64,000 nucleotides of DNA from Endobacter medicaginis. GTDB taxonomy: Bacteria; Pseudomonadota; Alphaproteobacteria; Acetobacterales; Acetobacteraceae. Location of the stretch: positions 297,569 through 361,568 of the forward strand of contig NZ_JACHXV010000002.1 in assembly GCF_014192375.1 (NCBI RefSeq), written 5' to 3'. The position numbers and the translations under genes were made by a program. This document shows, one piece after another, positions 49,696 through 57,749 of this stretch. How positions within the stretch are numbered: position 1 is the stretch's first letter; every line of letters begins with the position of its first letter. The notes beneath the pieces are model-generated. The model was not told where the DNA came from. It made no database searches and was given only the letters and a program-made list of their open reading frames with translations.

Positions 49696-50622
49696 TCAGA
49701 CGAGGCGCCGCCGCGCCGCCATCACACGCTCGATCCCGCCCAGGTCACACCGCAGCGCCAGCAGATCGAACCCGTGCGCCGCCAGCATCGCCACCAGCGC
49801 CGGGGCCTGCCCGATGCCAAATTCCAGCAGCAGCACCCCCTCTTCGGCGAGCAGACGCATGGCCAGCGGCAGGATGGTCCGGTAGGCATCGAGCCCGTCC
49901 GCGCCACCATCGAGCGCCGCCCGCGGCTCCCAGTGCCGAACCTCGGCCATCAGCCCGGACAGGTCGCCGCTCGGGATATACGGCGGGTTGGCGAGGATCA
50001 CGTCGAACCCGCCTCCACGTCCCCGCTCGCCCAGCGCGGCGCCCCAGTCGCTGCACAGGACCGCGCTGCGTCCGGCCAGCCCGTTGCGACGCGCGTTGGC
50101 CCGTGCGAGGGCCGCGGCCTGTGGCGCGCGCTCCACCCCCAAGCCCCAGGCGGACGGATACTCGGCGAGGGCGGCGAGCAGCAGACAGCCGGTCCCGGTG
50201 CCGAGATCCAGCACCCTGCGCACCGCACCACGCTCCGGGCGCAGCGCCAGCAGCGTCTCGATCACCGTCTCGCTGTCGGCCCGCGGCACCAGCGTCGCCG
50301 GCGAGACGGCGAGATCGAGGCTCCAGAAGCCCCGCGAACCCAGCAGATGCGCCATCGGCTCATGGCGCAGCCGGCGCGCCAGCAGGGCGTCGAACCGTGA
50401 GACGGACACCATCGTGTCGCGCGGCGCCAGCATCAGCGCACCGGGGCTCTCGCCCAGCACATGGGCGAGCAGCAGACGCGCCTCGCGTGCGGGGGAGTCG
50501 ATGCCGGCCCCGCGCAATGCGGCCGTCGCCCGATCCAGGGTCGCCCCCAAGGTCGCCGTCCCGGGGTCGCTTTGGCCGGGGGGCTGCAGCAAGGAGGCGC
50601 CTGGTGTAGTCTTGGCCGTCAT
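49696..50622 (-). CDS. prmC: Release-factor glutamine methyltransferase
   Basis: This 308-residue SAM-dependent enzyme methylates the GGQ glutamine of release factors. The helical N-domain includes AGIDSPAREARLLLAHVLG; the Rossmann part has VLDLGTGTGCLLLAALA and the catalytic NPPY (ILANPPYIPSGDL). Homology starts around residue 25, so the N-terminus is slightly long; ATG 50622 lies back to back with the ATG of the divergent gene at 50621, sharing the bases CATG. An internal start is possible. Its substrate RF1 is encoded 6 kb away by prfA. Confidence 0.93.
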   Translation of the reverse strand: MTAKTTPGASLLQPPGQSDPGTATLGATLDRATAALRGAGIDSPAREARLLLAHVLGESPGALMLAPRDTMVSVSRFDALLARRLRHEPMAHLLGSRGFWSLDLAVSPATLVPRADSETVIETLLALRPERGAVRRVLDLGTGTGCLLLAALAEYPSAWGLGVERAPQAAALARANARRNGLAGRSAVLCSDWGAALGERGRGGGFDVILANPPYIPSGDLSGLMAEVRHWEPRAALDGGADGLDAYRTILPLAMRLLAEEGVLLLEFGIGQAPALVAMLAAHGFDLLALRCDLGGIERVMAARRRLV

Positions 50623-51082
50623 GTCCTCACCACGTCTGCATCCCATCGCCGTCGCCTGCGGCCTGTCCCTTGCCGGATGGCTGGCCTGCACGCCGGCGCT
50701 GGCCGCGCAGTTCAGCATCGTCGACCAGCGCGGCGAGGGCGAGATCTCCGAGCGGACGCGCTTCTACATCGACGGCGTCCTGGTCGCCCAGGCGCAGCTC
50801 GGCGACCGCCAGAACGAGACCGTGATGCAGGTCACGGTCCCTGACCGCGACCACTACGAGTACAGCCTCTGTGGCAGCGTGACCATCCAAAACCCCGGCG
50901 GGACCGAGACGCATGAGGTGAATGCCTCGGGTATTCTGCGTCATCCGGACGGGCACCGCTTCGAGGCGATGGGCACCGAGAACTACAACGGCTTTTACCT
51001 GGTCGACCGCACCGACCCGACCAGCGGCAGTGTCGAGAACCGCGCCATCCGCTCGCTGGCCTGCGCGTCGCCAAGCAGTTGA
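50621..51082 (+). CDS. Secreted protein of unknown function
   Basis: This 153-residue protein has a clear Sec signal peptide, MSSPRLHPIAVACGLSLAGW then TPALAAQ, and a mature part of about 125 residues that looks like a single beta-rich domain (FYIDGVLVAQAQL, YNGFYLVDRTDP). Two cysteines (SLCGSV and LACAS) could form a disulfide in the periplasm. No family is recognised. Its start codon overlaps that of prmC on the other strand; AAGGAGG lies 23 bases upstream, farther than usual. It is followed by the MpaB-like gene with a TTGA overlap. Confidence 0.75.
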   Translation: MSSPRLHPIAVACGLSLAGWLACTPALAAQFSIVDQRGEGEISERTRFYIDGVLVAQAQLGDRQNETVMQVTVPDRDHYEYSLCGSVTIQNPGGTETHEVNASGILRHPDGHRFEAMGTENYNGFYLVDRTDPTSGSVENRAIRSLACASPSS

Positions 51083-51921
51083 CTCCACCCGACCGCCTCG
51101 CCGGCACCCCGCGCGACGCCATCGCCCGTCGCGTCTCGGAGCTGTTCACCGATCCCGACCGGCCCGATCCCCCGGTGCGGCGCAGCAGCGAGGCGCTGTT
51201 CGCACCGGATTCGATGGCCTGGCGGGTGCATGGCGATGTCGGCGCGATGATGGTCGGCGGCATCGCCTCGCTGCTGATGCAGATGCTGCACCCGGCGGTG
51301 CTGGCCGGCGTGTGGGACCACTCGGCCTTCCGCGAGAACATGCAGGGCCGCCTGCGCAGCACCGCGCGCTTCATCGCACGCACCACCTATGCCGCACGAC
51401 CCGAGGCGGAGGCGGCGATCGCCCGGGTGCGGGCGATCCACGAGCGGGTCTGCGGCACGTTGCCGGACGGCACGCCCTATCGGGCCAGCGATCCGGCCCT
51501 GCTGGCCTGGGTGCATGTCACCGAGACGAGCTGCTTCGTCGAGGCGTGGCGGCGCCATGTCGCGCCGGGGGCGACGCTGGCTGAGCAGAACCGCTATCTC
51601 GACGAGATGGCGCGGATCGGCCTCGCGCTGGGTGCTGCGCCCGTGCCACGCTCGCGACGCGAGGCGCAGGCGCTGATGGCCTCCACCCGGCCGCAGCTGC
51701 GCGTGGATGACCGCACGGTGGAGGTGGCCCGGCTGCTGCGTGAACAGCCGGGCGGCAACCTGCCCGGACCGATCCGCGGCCTGCTGATGCAAGCCGCGCT
51801 CGACCTGCTGCCCGGCTGGGCTCAGGCGATGCATGCGCGCACCCCCCTCCGGCCACCGCGTCCGCTGGTGAGGCTCGCGGCAACAGGGGCGGCATCGACC
51901 CTGCGCTGGGCGCTGCGCTGA
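51079..51921 (+). CDS. MpaB-type oxygenase (DUF2236)
   Basis: This 280-residue haem-dependent-oxygenase-like protein of the MpaB/DUF2236 family shows its signatures: MLHPAVLAGVWDHSAFRENM, GRLRSTARFIARTTYA and VHVTETSCFVEAWRR. Relatives include Lcp (latex clearing protein) and MpaB, which cleave double bonds of lipids or polyisoprenoids; MpaB itself oxidises a farnesyl chain. Start is TTG 51079, overlapping the previous stop as TTGA. No signal peptide is seen. Next to a lipoxygenase, it suggests oxidation of unsaturated lipids, an inference. Confidence 0.85.
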   Translation: MTPPDRLAGTPRDAIARRVSELFTDPDRPDPPVRRSSEALFAPDSMAWRVHGDVGAMMVGGIASLLMQMLHPAVLAGVWDHSAFRENMQGRLRSTARFIARTTYAARPEAEAAIARVRAIHERVCGTLPDGTPYRASDPALLAWVHVTETSCFVEAWRRHVAPGATLAEQNRYLDEMARIGLALGAAPVPRSRREAQALMASTRPQLRVDDRTVEVARLLREQPGGNLPGPIRGLLMQAALDLLPGWAQAMHARTPLRPPRPLVRLAATGAASTLRWALR

Positions 51922-51946: not shown

Positions 51947-53017
51947 TCAGAAATAGACGCCGGCGACGGGTCCGGTCCCGGTCGACAGCACGTTGCCGAC
52001 CTGCTGGAAGGTCGAGGTGTCGTAGGTGGTCACGTGCCCGGTCAGGCCCGGCGGCAAAACGTAGAAGAAATCGTAGATGAAGAAGCGCAGCGCGGGCGGC
52101 AGCGCCGACACGGGGCCAAGATCGCTCAGATAGGCCTTGGTGCCGTCGGGGCTGAGGCCGACGAACGCCGGCGCGTTGGTCGTCGGCATCTTCCGCACGA
52201 TCTTGTCGGTGGTCATGTCGATGACCGTCACGTCATAGGTGCCGATATCGGCGACCCACATCTTCCTGCCATCCGGCGTCAGCGTGCCAGAGAGCGGCCA
52301 GCTCCCGGCGGGCAGGGTAATGGTGTCGGCGATCGTCATCGTGCGCGTGTCGATCTTGGTGATGTTCGACGTCGTGAAGTTCAGCGAATAGACATAGATG
52401 CCGTCCGGACTGATGGCCGACCAGGCCGGCACCATGCCGCTGACCGTGATCGCGGACAGACGCTGGCCGGTGGCGGTATTGTAGACCTCGAGCCCGTTGG
52501 ACGTATTGAAGACATACAGCTTGCTCCCGTCGGGGCTGACCTGCACCGCCATCGGTCCCATCGCGGTCGGGATCGTCCTGACGATGCTGTCGGTCGTGGT
52601 GTCGATCACCTGCACGACGTTGGCATTGGTCGGCACGTAGAGATAGCGGCCATCCTTGCTCAGCTCGAACGACGCATACGGGTCGCCCATCATGCTGATG
52701 GTCTTGCTGACCGTGTTGGTGGCCGTGTTGATGACGCTGACCTGCCAGGGCAACAGGCCGAAATTGTCGACATACACCTTCGAGCCGTCCGGCAGCGCCT
52801 TGAGCACGATCGGATGCGTGCCGACGCCGATCTTCGTGGTCAGCGCGCCGGTATTGGTGTTGAACACGTAGACCGAGTTCTCGTCATCGACGGGAATGTA
52901 GATGGTCCCGGCTGCGGGAGCGGCCAGCGCGTTGCCGCAGCCCAGCACGGCCAGGCCCCCGAGCAGGGAGGCACGCAGCGAGCGTGCGAGCACGCCCAGG
53001 GCTGAGATGTATTTCAT
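51947..53017 (-). CDS. YncE-like beta-propeller protein, copy 1
   Basis: This 356-residue protein has a signal peptide (LLGGLAVLGCGNALAA) and a seven-bladed YVTN/YncE propeller (SKVYVDNFGLLP, GRYLYVPTNANVVQVIDTTT, GYLSDLG-type repeats). Ribosome binding site GGAGCAA precedes ATG 53017. It is a close paralogue of the next gene: both share the SKVY(V/I)DNFGLLP block. Exported; ligand unknown. It lies with copy 2 and the lipoxygenase in one leftward run, last of the three. Confidence 0.88.
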   Translation of the reverse strand: MKYISALGVLARSLRASLLGGLAVLGCGNALAAPAAGTIYIPVDDENSVYVFNTNTGALTTKIGVGTHPIVLKALPDGSKVYVDNFGLLPWQVSVINTATNTVSKTISMMGDPYASFELSKDGRYLYVPTNANVVQVIDTTTDSIVRTIPTAMGPMAVQVSPDGSKLYVFNTSNGLEVYNTATGQRLSAITVSGMVPAWSAISPDGIYVYSLNFTTSNITKIDTRTMTIADTITLPAGSWPLSGTLTPDGRKMWVADIGTYDVTVIDMTTDKIVRKMPTTNAPAFVGLSPDGTKAYLSDLGPVSALPPALRFFIYDFFYVLPPGLTGHVTTYDTSTFQQVGNVLSTGTGPVAGVYF

Positions 53018-53066: not shown

Positions 53067-54158
53067 CTATGGCGCCGCCGGGATCCACGCACCGATACCG
53101 GGTCCGGGACGGACCACGACCGGGGCACCGACGATCCGGTCGGTGGCGGGATCGAAGGCGATGATCTGGCCATTGCCGAGCCAGCCCAGCGTGACGAGAT
53201 TGAGGAACGAGATGCCCTCGCCGAGCGGTGTGACGAAGGCGGCGGTGGATGCGCCGAGATCGGAAATGTAGCCGCGTGTGCCATCATCGCTGAAAATGAC
53301 CGCGACCGCGGAACCGGCGGTGGGAATGACGCCGCGGAGCCTGTCGGTGACGACATCGTAGATCCGTACGCCGCTGCCGCCGAAGACGCTCACATAGAGC
53401 TTGGTGCCGTCAGGGGAGAGGATCGAGGTGAAGGCGCCCGGCTCCGCGGGCGTGTAGACGCCGTTGAGACTGGTGGGAATGATCGATGTCAGCCTCCAGT
53501 TCGCGACATCGATCACACCGATCGAATTGACCGTGTCCACATAGAGCTTTTTGCCATCCTTGGTGAAGGTGTACCAGAACGGCGCGACGCCCCCGGTGGC
53601 GATCGGCGCCCTGATCTGCTGGCCCGTCACGGGATCGTAGGCGCCGATCCGGCCATCGGCAAAACCGACATAGAGGGCGCCATCCGGGCCCGGGATGGCA
53701 CCCACCGGCACGGCGGCAAACCTGAGGCTGCGCACCACCGTGTCGGTGGCGACATTCATCACCTCGACGGTGAATCCCGCCTCCGGGAGATAGACCTCCT
53801 TGCCGTCGTTCGACATGAACGCGCCCAGCGGCACCGAGGCCACCGCGATCGTGCGCTGCGTGTTGTGCTTGAGGTCGAGCACCGTGACGCTGGCCGGCAG
53901 CAGGCCGAAATTGTCGATATAGACCTTGCTGCCGTCGGGCGTCCTCGCCATGACCGCCGGGCGCGACGCCGGCAGCGGCACCGTGAAGCGGTTGACGACC
54001 CGGTTGGTCGCACCGTCGATCACGGCCACCGTGTTGCTGTCCACCTCCGGCACCAGCAGACTGCCGCTGGGAGCGGCCTGGGCGGTGACGCTCGCGCCGA
54101 TCCACAAGGTCGCGGCAAGCACACCAGAGATCCGCGATCCTCTTGTCTTCAAGGGCAT
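53067..54158 (-). CDS. YncE-like beta-propeller protein, copy 2
   Basis: This 363-residue exported propeller begins MPLKTRGSRISGVLAATLWI with a Sec leader cleaved near TAQAAP. TTG 54167 (MKNMPLK) is an alternative start, and ATG 54158 follows GAG by about 9 bases. Blade repeats: TPDGSKVYIDNFGLLPAS, DGKEVYLPEAGFTVEVM and GTRGYISDLGAS. It is 49 bp upstream of copy 1 and 11 bp after the lipoxygenase. A carrier, scaffold or quinone-like-cofactor binding role is possible but unsupported. Confidence 0.87.
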   Translation of the reverse strand: MPLKTRGSRISGVLAATLWIGASVTAQAAPSGSLLVPEVDSNTVAVIDGATNRVVNRFTVPLPASRPAVMARTPDGSKVYIDNFGLLPASVTVLDLKHNTQRTIAVASVPLGAFMSNDGKEVYLPEAGFTVEVMNVATDTVVRSLRFAAVPVGAIPGPDGALYVGFADGRIGAYDPVTGQQIRAPIATGGVAPFWYTFTKDGKKLYVDTVNSIGVIDVANWRLTSIIPTSLNGVYTPAEPGAFTSILSPDGTKLYVSVFGGSGVRIYDVVTDRLRGVIPTAGSAVAVIFSDDGTRGYISDLGASTAAFVTPLGEGISFLNLVTLGWLGNGQIIAFDPATDRIVGAPVVVRPGPGIGAWIPAAP

Positions 54159-54169
54159 GTTTTTCAATC

Positions 54170-56206
54170 TCAGATATTGGTGCTGGTCGGAATCCGGCTC
54201 GGCAGCAGATACGGGTAGGGATAGCTGCGGGTGGTGTTGGCTGCGTTGATCTTCGCCTCGATCGCCGTCAGCGCCGCCCGATATTGCGACAGCGGTCCGC
54301 CCGTTGCGGTGATCGCCGGATCGGTGAGGGTCGACAGATACGCGAAGTTGGCGCTCTGGTAATTGCCGAGCGAGCGGTAATGCACCGAGCCAAGCAGATA
54401 CAGGAAATGCATCTGCGCGATGGCGGCCACCATGTTGGGCAGCAGCGCGTTCCAGTTCTGCTGGCTTGCCGACAGGCCCGATGGCGGCGGCGCGTTCATC
54501 ACGCCCGAATAGACCGGCTGGTAGACCATGAACTGGCTTTGCGGAAAATTCACCGCCGCGTGCTGGGCGGATGCCGTGAACATGATCATCGCGACGACCT
54601 GTGCAAGCTGGCTGCGCGAGGTGATCGGCCTGAAGCCGAGGATCTTGCCGCTGGAGGCAATCTCCGTCACCCAGGCCGAAAGCTCGCCATCTCCGACCAC
54701 GTCGGCGTCAGACTTGTAGTACACGCCGATATAATTCGTCGCCCAGTCGAGCAGCGCCTGCCAGATCAGCAGCGCATCGTCGCGATATGGGTATTCGGGC
54801 AGCACGCTGCTGCTGGCGACGCCGCGGTTGGCGAAATCCACCGGCGGCATCTGATTGTAGAAATCGAAGGCCAGTCGGTCGCGGGCCGCGGCCTGCTGGG
54901 CTGCGGCAATCGGACCCCCGAGAATGAGATCGCCGAACGTATCGGGCGACATGATGATCGCCGCCGCCAGCTCGTTGATGAAGATATCGCCCTCGTAATG
55001 CGGCAGCAGCAGCACGCTCAGCGGATGGTTCGGCGCGAGCTGCCGGTGCGTCGCGACGCAGAATGCCTCGGAGACGAGATGCGTGCGGCCGAGATGGACG
55101 AACATCTCATGATAGTTGAAATCTGCCGTGTTGACGACGGTCTTCGCCATCTGCCAGGCCCAGTAGGCCTGGCTGCTGGACGCGGCGGTGCGACAGATGA
55201 TCGGATTCGTCGCCGGGTTCTGGCCACACTGGATCGCCACCGCCGACAGCGTCGCGGCACCCGGCAGCAGCGCGAACAGCGCGATCGGCGCGGCGACATA
55301 GCCTGTCCCGGTCAGGGTCTTGCTGGTGCCACCGGCCGGCGCCATCGCACCGAGCTCGACATAGTCGAGAATGAACAGACGCTTGCCGGCAAGTGCCGCC
55401 GACAAGGTGTCGGTCGTGTTGAGCGCGGCCTGGTACTGCGCATTGGTGATCGGGAACTTCGTCGGAATGGCACTGATCGACGTCAGCAGCATCGGGTTGG
55501 GTCCACCGACACGCAGATAGGCGAACATCGCGTCGTCATGGAGATAGCCGGCAATCTCGGGGCGCGAGATTGCGGTGAACAGCGCATCGTAACTCGCAGG
55601 CGTTCGTGTTGCAGTCGTCGATGTCGACGACAGCGCAGTCGTCAGCACCGTCAGCGCGCTCTCGCCCATCGTGCCGAGTTGCGTGAACAGTGCCTGCAGA
55701 CTCGTCTGGAGCTGACCGGCCAGCAGCGCGTTCACCGTCGCGTCGCTGCCGGTCTGAGCCTGAACGAACAGGGACTGGCTCGCTGCCAGCGTGGTGCGCG
55801 CGGAGGCGAGCTGGCTGTTGATGCTGGAGAGCTGCGCGCCGACCGCCTGCCCTCCCACCGTGGCGACCGCGCCCAGCAGGTTCGCAACGATGGTGATGCC
55901 GACGGAGATCGCGCCGATCAGCCATTCGATGGTCGGCAGTTCCTGGGTAGGCAGCAGCGCCGAAAGCGGCACGCCGGGCAGCGTCGGGAACTGGTCGGTC
56001 CAGACATACTGGAGCTGCATCGATGCGATGGCCGCACGCCGGGTCACTGCATCGATGATGCTGACTTTCTGCGGCAATGTCGGCACCGAGACCGTGGCGG
56101 TCGTCGTGAGCGGCATCGACGCCGCGGAGGCGATTTTCGACAGGTTCGGGAACACGGAGAGGGCCGACAGCCCGGTTCCGGCTGCAAGGAACTCGCGACG
56201 ACGCAC
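54170..56206 (-). CDS. Lipoxygenase, Tat-exported, with complete iron ligands
   Basis: This 678-residue protein is a bacterial lipoxygenase, an iron enzyme adding O2 to polyunsaturated fatty acids. It starts with GTG 56206 (GGAGA about 9 bases upstream), giving MRRREFLAAGTGLSALSVF, a twin-arginine-like leader that suggests folded export. The iron set is present: His366 and His371 (HEMFVH), His549 and Asn553 (SAQHAAVNF) and the C-terminal Ile678 (TSTNI). The family block FCVATHRQLAPNHPL also matches. Two YncE-like propellers follow with short gaps in the same direction, so the three are likely one operon. Substrate and product position are unknown. Confidence 0.9.
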   Translation of the reverse strand: MRRREFLAAGTGLSALSVFPNLSKIASAASMPLTTTATVSVPTLPQKVSIIDAVTRRAAIASMQLQYVWTDQFPTLPGVPLSALLPTQELPTIEWLIGAISVGITIVANLLGAVATVGGQAVGAQLSSINSQLASARTTLAASQSLFVQAQTGSDATVNALLAGQLQTSLQALFTQLGTMGESALTVLTTALSSTSTTATRTPASYDALFTAISRPEIAGYLHDDAMFAYLRVGGPNPMLLTSISAIPTKFPITNAQYQAALNTTDTLSAALAGKRLFILDYVELGAMAPAGGTSKTLTGTGYVAAPIALFALLPGAATLSAVAIQCGQNPATNPIICRTAASSSQAYWAWQMAKTVVNTADFNYHEMFVHLGRTHLVSEAFCVATHRQLAPNHPLSVLLLPHYEGDIFINELAAAIIMSPDTFGDLILGGPIAAAQQAAARDRLAFDFYNQMPPVDFANRGVASSSVLPEYPYRDDALLIWQALLDWATNYIGVYYKSDADVVGDGELSAWVTEIASSGKILGFRPITSRSQLAQVVAMIMFTASAQHAAVNFPQSQFMVYQPVYSGVMNAPPPSGLSASQQNWNALLPNMVAAIAQMHFLYLLGSVHYRSLGNYQSANFAYLSTLTDPAITATGGPLSQYRAALTAIEAKINAANTTRSYPYPYLLPSRIPTSTNI

Positions 56207-56681: not shown

Positions 56682-57749
56682 TCAGACGCCCGCCGCGGCG
56701 AGCAGGGCGGCCTGCTCCTCCTGGGTGAGCGCGTCGACGAACTCGTCAAACTCGCCCGCCATCACCCGATCGATCTTGTAGAGGGTCAGGTTGATGCGAT
56801 GATCCGAAACACGGCCCTGCGGGAAGTTGTAGGTGCGAATGCGTTCGGAGCGGTCACCGGTGCCGACCTGCGAGCGCCGGTCGGCCGCGCGCGCATCGGC
56901 GCTCGCACTGCGCTGCGCCTCGTACAGCCGCGAACGCAGGATTTTCATCGCCTTGGCACGATTCTTGTGCTGGCTGCGCTCCTCCTGCATCGCCACCACG
57001 GTACCAGTAGGGATGTGGGTAATGCGCACGGCCGAGTCGGTCTTGTTGACGTGCTGGCCGCCCGCACCCGACGCACGATAGGTGTCGATGCGCAGGTCGG
57101 CCTCGTTGATCTCGACGTCCACCTCCTCGGCCTCCGGCAGCACCGCCACCGTGATCGTCGACGTGTGGATCCGCCCCTGGCCTTCGGTCACCGGAACGCG
57201 CTGAACCCGGTGCACGCCGGATTCGTATTTCAGTCGGGCGAACACCCCCTTGCCGGAAATCTCCGCCACCCCTTCGCGCAAGCCACCGAGCTCGGATTCG
57301 CTCGCCTCGAGCAACTCGAAGCGCCAGCCGCGCAGATCGGCATAGCGCCGATAGGCGTCGAACAGCTCGCGCGCGAACAGGGCCGCCTCGTCGCCGCCCG
57401 CCGCGGGCCGGATCTCCACGATCGCGCTGCGCTCGTCGGCCGCATCGCGTGGCAGCATGGCAATCCGGATTTCATGACGCAGGCCCGGCAGGCGGCCACG
57501 CAGCGCGTCGAGTTCGCCGATCGCCAGCTCGCGCAGCTCGGGATCCGACAGCATCGATTCGAGCCCGCGCTCTTCCGCCTCCGCATCGCGCAGCGCACCG
57601 ATCCGCCCGACCAGCGGCTCGAGCTCCGCATATTCACGCGAGGCGGCAGCGAATGCCTCGCCGGCAAGTTCCCCCGAGCCGAGCATCGCCTCAAGCTCGG
57701 CGAACCGCCCGACGATGCGGTCCAGACGCTCGTCGAGCGACGCGCTCAT
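56682..57749 (-). CDS. prfA: Peptide chain release factor 1
   Basis: This 355-residue protein reads UAA and UAG stops. It shows the tripeptide anticodon PVT at residues 186-188 ([10 protein letters not shown]), the class I release-factor GGQ at 230-232 ([13 protein letters not shown]) and the N-terminal helices. Length is standard. It overlaps hisS by 4 bp (ATGA). In related genomes prmC usually follows directly; here 6 kb of other genes separate them. Confidence 0.96.

Follow-up and report, generated by a model that had tools for sequence, protein, structure and literature searches.

The window analyzed here, a 64,000-nucleotide stretch of one contig of Endobacter medicaginis, contains a gene that was assigned to the lipoxygenases in a first-pass annotation. 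The question raised by this locus is what such an enzyme might do for its owner and whether the genes around it take part in the same function. Lipoxygenases are uncommon in bacteria, as that annotation had also claimed: they occur in less than 0.5% of bacterial species (PMC6612559) and in one of the 300 genomes from the family of E. medicaginis, while the functional data are confined to few organisms according to a 2024 review (PMC11011848). The following features, listed in the reading direction of the lipoxygenase gene, are considered below:

56682..57749, minus strand: prfA, one border of the insertion
54170..56206, minus strand: LOX, LoxA-type lipoxygenase, 678 aa, GTG start at 56206, open frame intact
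56117..56206, minus strand: putative Tat-type leader of LOX, approximately 30 aa, VRRREFLAAGTGLSALSVFPNLSKIASAAS (sequence; similar leaders in relatives)
53067..54158, minus strand: prop1, putatively exported YVTN beta-propeller, 363 aa (gene order, model)
51947..53017, minus strand: prop2, second putatively exported YVTN beta-propeller, 356 aa, ATG start at 53017 (Pfam)
51079..51921, plus strand: MPAB_Lcp oxygenase (mpaB / rubber-oxygenase type), convergent with prop2 (PF09995, 194 bits)
50621..51082, plus strand: small exported protein (homologue between prfA and prmC in relatives)
49696..50718, minus strand: prmC, the other border of the insertion

The lipoxygenase and its active site

The Pfam profile search placed LOX in PF00305 with a score of 176 bits (cut-off 23.6), and it was the sole PF00305 protein in the 3.63 Mb genome. 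The family block FCVATHRQLAPNHPL was confirmed on the sequence. The gene lies on the minus strand, which the first-pass annotation had left unstated; its GTG start has a GGAG ahead of it, and the protein terminates with ...PTSTNI. The closest solved structure belongs to LoxA of Pseudomonas aeruginosa (PA-LOX; 4g32, 4g33, 5ir4, 5ir5, 5lc8), to which LOX is homologous over the full length: the match to 4g32 reached 601 bits over residues 40–678, which at the sequence level is no chance similarity, and the alignment showed 43% identity over 667 columns. The AlphaFold2 model, for which 24 sequences from the window and the compared loci were used as input, had a mean pLDDT of 89 and a pTM of 0.90, and its comparison with the LoxA structures gave TM values of 0.89 when normalised to the query and of up to 0.95 when normalised to the target, i.e. 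the predicted fold is consistent with the lipoxygenase family. The long helices 93–152 and 156–194 of the model make up a helical N-terminal lid. The same lid replaces the PLAT barrel in LoxA, which also shares with LOX the twin-arginine leader, the five ligands and the Coffa alanine; no PLAT domain was recognized in LOX by Pfam, and the alignment with LoxA begins at residue 40.

Sequence, profile and predicted fold all agreed with the initial identification of a lipoxygenase with a complete iron site, but one of the ligands was originally misassigned. According to the alignment columns, the five ligands of LOX are His371, His376, His549, Asn553 and Ile678, with His377, His382, His555, Asn559 and Ile685 as the X-ray ligands of LoxA (PMC5712309). 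His371, His549, Asn553 and Ile678 were thus named correctly, while His366 falls into the column of LoxA His372, a non-ligand, and is ruled out by this alignment, its place being taken by His376. The human 5-LOX ligands His367 and His372 (PMC13014066) have the same H-x4-H spacing as His371/His376. Three histidines of LOX (His366, His371 and His376) are invariant across 24 relatives.

In lipoxygenase chemistry the ferric centre abstracts a hydrogen, which is followed by O2 insertion. The stereo-control (Coffa) position of LOX is occupied, according to the alignment, by Ala414, corresponding to LoxA Ala420, and on the basis of this alanine an S-hydroperoxide is predicted as the product. The alanine rule has exceptions, and in a Myxococcus lipoxygenase the exchange of the Coffa alanine left the stereochemistry unchanged (PMC6612559). 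The position of attack is not predicted here since the pocket-floor residues differ between the two enzymes (Phe363, Ile428 and Leu429 in LOX against Glu369, Met434 and Phe435 in LoxA). LoxA forms the 15S product from free arachidonate and oxygenates membrane phospholipids as well (PMC5764228), and, by analogy, LOX probably accepts polyenoic acids in either form, free or bound in phospholipids. By its motifs, the single PF00487 protein of the whole genome looks like an AlkB-type alkane hydroxylase and thus provides no hint of polyenoic acids made by the cell; a substrate coming from outside, as suggested in the first pass, is plausible and most likely.

The N-terminal part of LOX (MRRREFLAAGTGLSALS) includes a twin-arginine leader with an RRREFL motif, whose sequence matches the twin-arginine pattern, and residues 1–38 had a pLDDT below 50 in the model. 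Comparable leaders were found on the lipoxygenases of Variovorax, Pelomonas, Burkholderia and P. aeruginosa, as well as of Flexivirga, Nocardia, Antrihabitans, Tsukamurella and Corynebacterium. The Tat-like leader recognized in the first pass is therefore supported both by the sequence and by conservation in exported relatives, which suggests export of LOX by Tat. In contrast, the accompanying statement that bacterial lipoxygenases are mostly secreted did not hold: the LoxA-type enzymes of sphingomonads begin at the mature domain and have no leader, so export belongs to only a part of the LoxA-type family. These sphingomonad enzymes are approximately 40–46% identical to LOX with all ligands kept and form a separate clade. 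Burkholderia multivorans WS-FJ9 has two LoxA-type genes, and the product of one of these lacks an obvious leader.

A separate observation concerns the sphingomonad-type loci, 40 out of 48 of which have a divergent GGDEF diguanylate cyclase gene beside the lipoxygenase gene, within approximately 210 bases upstream. This neighbor may indicate a link between lipoxygenase and c-di-GMP; in P. aeruginosa, biofilms are the main setting of LoxA expression (PMC6702342).

Two propeller genes linked to one lipoxygenase clade

LOX opens an operon of three genes, which had been missed in the first pass: prop1 follows LOX after 11 nt (stop to start), and prop2 lies 49 nt behind prop1. Both propellers open with signal-peptide-like stretches, suggesting that they are exported separately from LOX. 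Prop2 scored above the PF21783 cut-off, while prop1 was only a near miss in Pfam; the latter was modelled as a propeller with a pLDDT of 84, and its best fold match was the archaeal surface-layer propeller 1l0q. The repeat type and the fold are shared with the YncE/YVTN beta-propellers (1l0q, 3vgz, 5c2v chain B), but the identity is approximately 25% or less and the scores are far below the NCBIfam YncE cut-offs (18.7 and 61.3 bits against 400 for the equivalog NF052280). Neither propeller reached any named protein family in NCBIfam, where only a short YVTN repeat model passed. Prop1 has no cysteine and a single unconserved histidine, while prop2 has one invariant histidine and no conserved cysteine. 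An alternative 469-codon frame for prop2 was rejected because its N-terminal 113 residues coincide with prop1 read in a different frame and because the homologues start at the signal peptide.

The same LOX-prop1-prop2 trio was found in 13 operons, belonging to Actinomycetota, one member of the Comamonadaceae and E. medicaginis. Apart from the latter, the hosts are Flexivirga, the Comamonadaceae member, two Nocardia, three Antrihabitans loci, Tsukamurella, Corynebacterium and three plasmids of Rhodococcus qingshengii. In eight collinear loci the next in-frame start lies 9–71 nt past the LOX stop, an exception being Antrihabitans YC2-6, where the propeller genes diverge from LOX instead of lying downstream. 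Prop1 is 41–56% identical to its LOX-linked orthologues and 57–59% identical to the products of the R. qingshengii plasmids (NZ_CP054208, NZ_CP089607, NZ_AP023173) by tblastn; the latter have the same gene order and tight spacing as E. medicaginis. They differ in an acyl-ACP thioesterase gene directly 5' of LOX, which is absent in E. medicaginis and suggests that these rhodococci may produce the fatty acid themselves. As a general partner the thioesterase was rejected, being LOX-adjacent in Rhodococcus only; in one Antrihabitans locus it is separated from LOX by more than 5 kb. The Comamonadaceae prop2 (L026:11342-12364) has one TGA within the match, yet a 340-codon open frame follows; this might be a start-site effect or decay.

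In the lipoxygenase tree the 13 propeller-linked enzymes form one clade (support 97/93), separate from every other alphaproteobacterial lipoxygenase included, and the propeller linkage required a single change of state, recovered in 96% of the bootstrap trees. The distances of LOX and prop1 were correlated (r 0.90, reached in 0 of 20000 permutations), to which the kinship of the hosts contributes. Prop1 orthologues occur solely beside the lipoxygenases of this clade in the collections searched. Among 72,556 plasmids only three were found, each next to a LOX (approximately 377 bits, the next match reaching 85), none was present in viral contigs, and in the operon-carrying genomes the high-scoring copies were located at the LOX loci only, Antrihabitans cavernicola having two of each gene. 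All four genomes examined with a lipoxygenase outside the clade were free of prop1. Within the 300 genomes of its own family, both genes occurred once, in E. medicaginis, and the other 299 had neither; in the Nocardia-type family (251 genomes) both were present in five and neither in 246, and it is these 246 that add information, as the five were known beforehand to carry both. In the open-licence papers searched, nothing relevant on lipoxygenases with beta-propellers, and no description of the operon, was found.

LoxA and the lipoxygenases of Variovorax and Burkholderia have no propellers, which means that these are not required for catalysis as such. Prop1 is missing from the PA7 genome, and no propeller genes adjoin the LoxA-type gene on p2014S05-249-1, a conjugative 847 kb plasmid of P. 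aeruginosa. This plasmid copy is very near to the chromosomal LoxA of PA7 and is surrounded by chromosome-like neighbors. In the Pantoea ananatis plasmid NZ_CP054911 genes for lysozyme and a lysis protein come directly after the lipoxygenase gene, an arrangement resembling a cluster of phage origin.

The insertion between prfA and prmC

A prfA locus was obtained from 12 relatives of the same family. In each of these prmC lies a short distance behind prfA, and in three cases one small exported gene stands between them. The corresponding gap in E. medicaginis is 6 kb and contains the trio together with the MPAB_Lcp oxygenase. Most likely the trio arrived at this site as a single unit by horizontal transfer. 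Foreign base composition was dismissed as a proof of transfer, since the GC3 values of LOX (0.83) and of the propellers (0.85–0.90) are within the range of the neighbors, and no clear insertion repeats, tRNA or phage genes were found at the borders.

Two further genes in the gap were considered as operon members and rejected. The small exported protein was not found near other lipoxygenases and, with its homologue lying between prfA and prmC in three relatives, is probably an older occupant of the site. The MPAB_Lcp oxygenase had only a weak match (26%) near any other LOX; its presence in the same insertion nevertheless brings two unrelated oxygenases of lipid-like substrates next to each other.

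Proposed function and its alternatives

The explanation that we consider probable is that of a Tat-exported LoxA-type lipoxygenase with two dedicated propeller partners, forming one horizontally acquired unit which oxidises exogenous unsaturated lipids extracytoplasmically. LOX would leave the cytoplasm by Tat, with prop1 and prop2 exported separately. Outside, the substrate of LOX would be an unsaturated fatty acid, either free or in a phospholipid, from which the enzyme would abstract hydrogen between the double bonds and to which it would add O2 to give an S-hydroperoxide. The propellers would serve the lipoxygenases of the trio clade by binding, anchoring or presenting either the lipid or the enzyme. 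Such roles are likelier than catalysis given the lack of a conserved cysteine in both propellers and of a conserved histidine in prop1: on balance, we favor binding or scaffolding, while a catalytic role seems improbable. A stronger version, in which the trio is a distinct mobile system for extracytoplasmic lipid oxidation, with the propellers as obligate partners that complex with LOX or feed lipid to it, is possible but tentative.

The trio could be inherited together by co-transfer without a joint function. Accordingly, LOX might be an ordinary LoxA-type enzyme whose neighbors are passengers that moved along once or twice and were kept by chance or co-regulation. The ability of LoxA to function without propellers would fit this, as would the small number of operons found (13) and the failure of the propellers to exceed the cut-off of any curated function family. 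However, the order and the tight spacing have been kept in two phyla among lipoxygenases only 39–49% identical to that of E. medicaginis, prop1 is conserved as much as LOX, and the linkage is strictly one to one, including the doubled set in A. cavernicola, which makes mere passengers unlikely. Somewhat less probable still are propellers that act as enzymes converting the hydroperoxide (e.g., as isomerase, lyase or lactonase) in a three-step oxylipin pathway. Beta-propeller lactonases and lyases do exist, and the thioesterase preceding the trio on the three Rhodococcus plasmids resembles a pathway operon, but that gene recurs at only one other LOX locus and at a distance, while the residue composition of prop1 and its best fold match, a surface-layer propeller, both speak against an enzyme. 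Finally, a decayed or repurposed LOX devoid of lipoxygenase activity is very improbable: although some bacterial lipoxygenases load iron poorly in E. coli (5.6%; PMC6612559), all ligands including the C-terminal isoleucine are kept here, the frame is intact and the fold is confidently predicted.

The lipoxygenase itself is a further member of the known LoxA-type enzymes, set apart by its conserved operon with two propellers. With E. medicaginis, the LoxA-type enzymes reach an alphaproteobacterial family where they are otherwise missing (from 299 of the 300 genomes sampled), and the trio shows such an enzyme moving between phyla as a module, plasmids included. Since prop1 and prop2 always accompany one lipoxygenase clade, they give a direct handle on the role of bacterial lipoxygenases for their owners, offering two proteins for deletion, pull-down and co-crystallisation in a harmless soil bacterium, for example Flexivirga.
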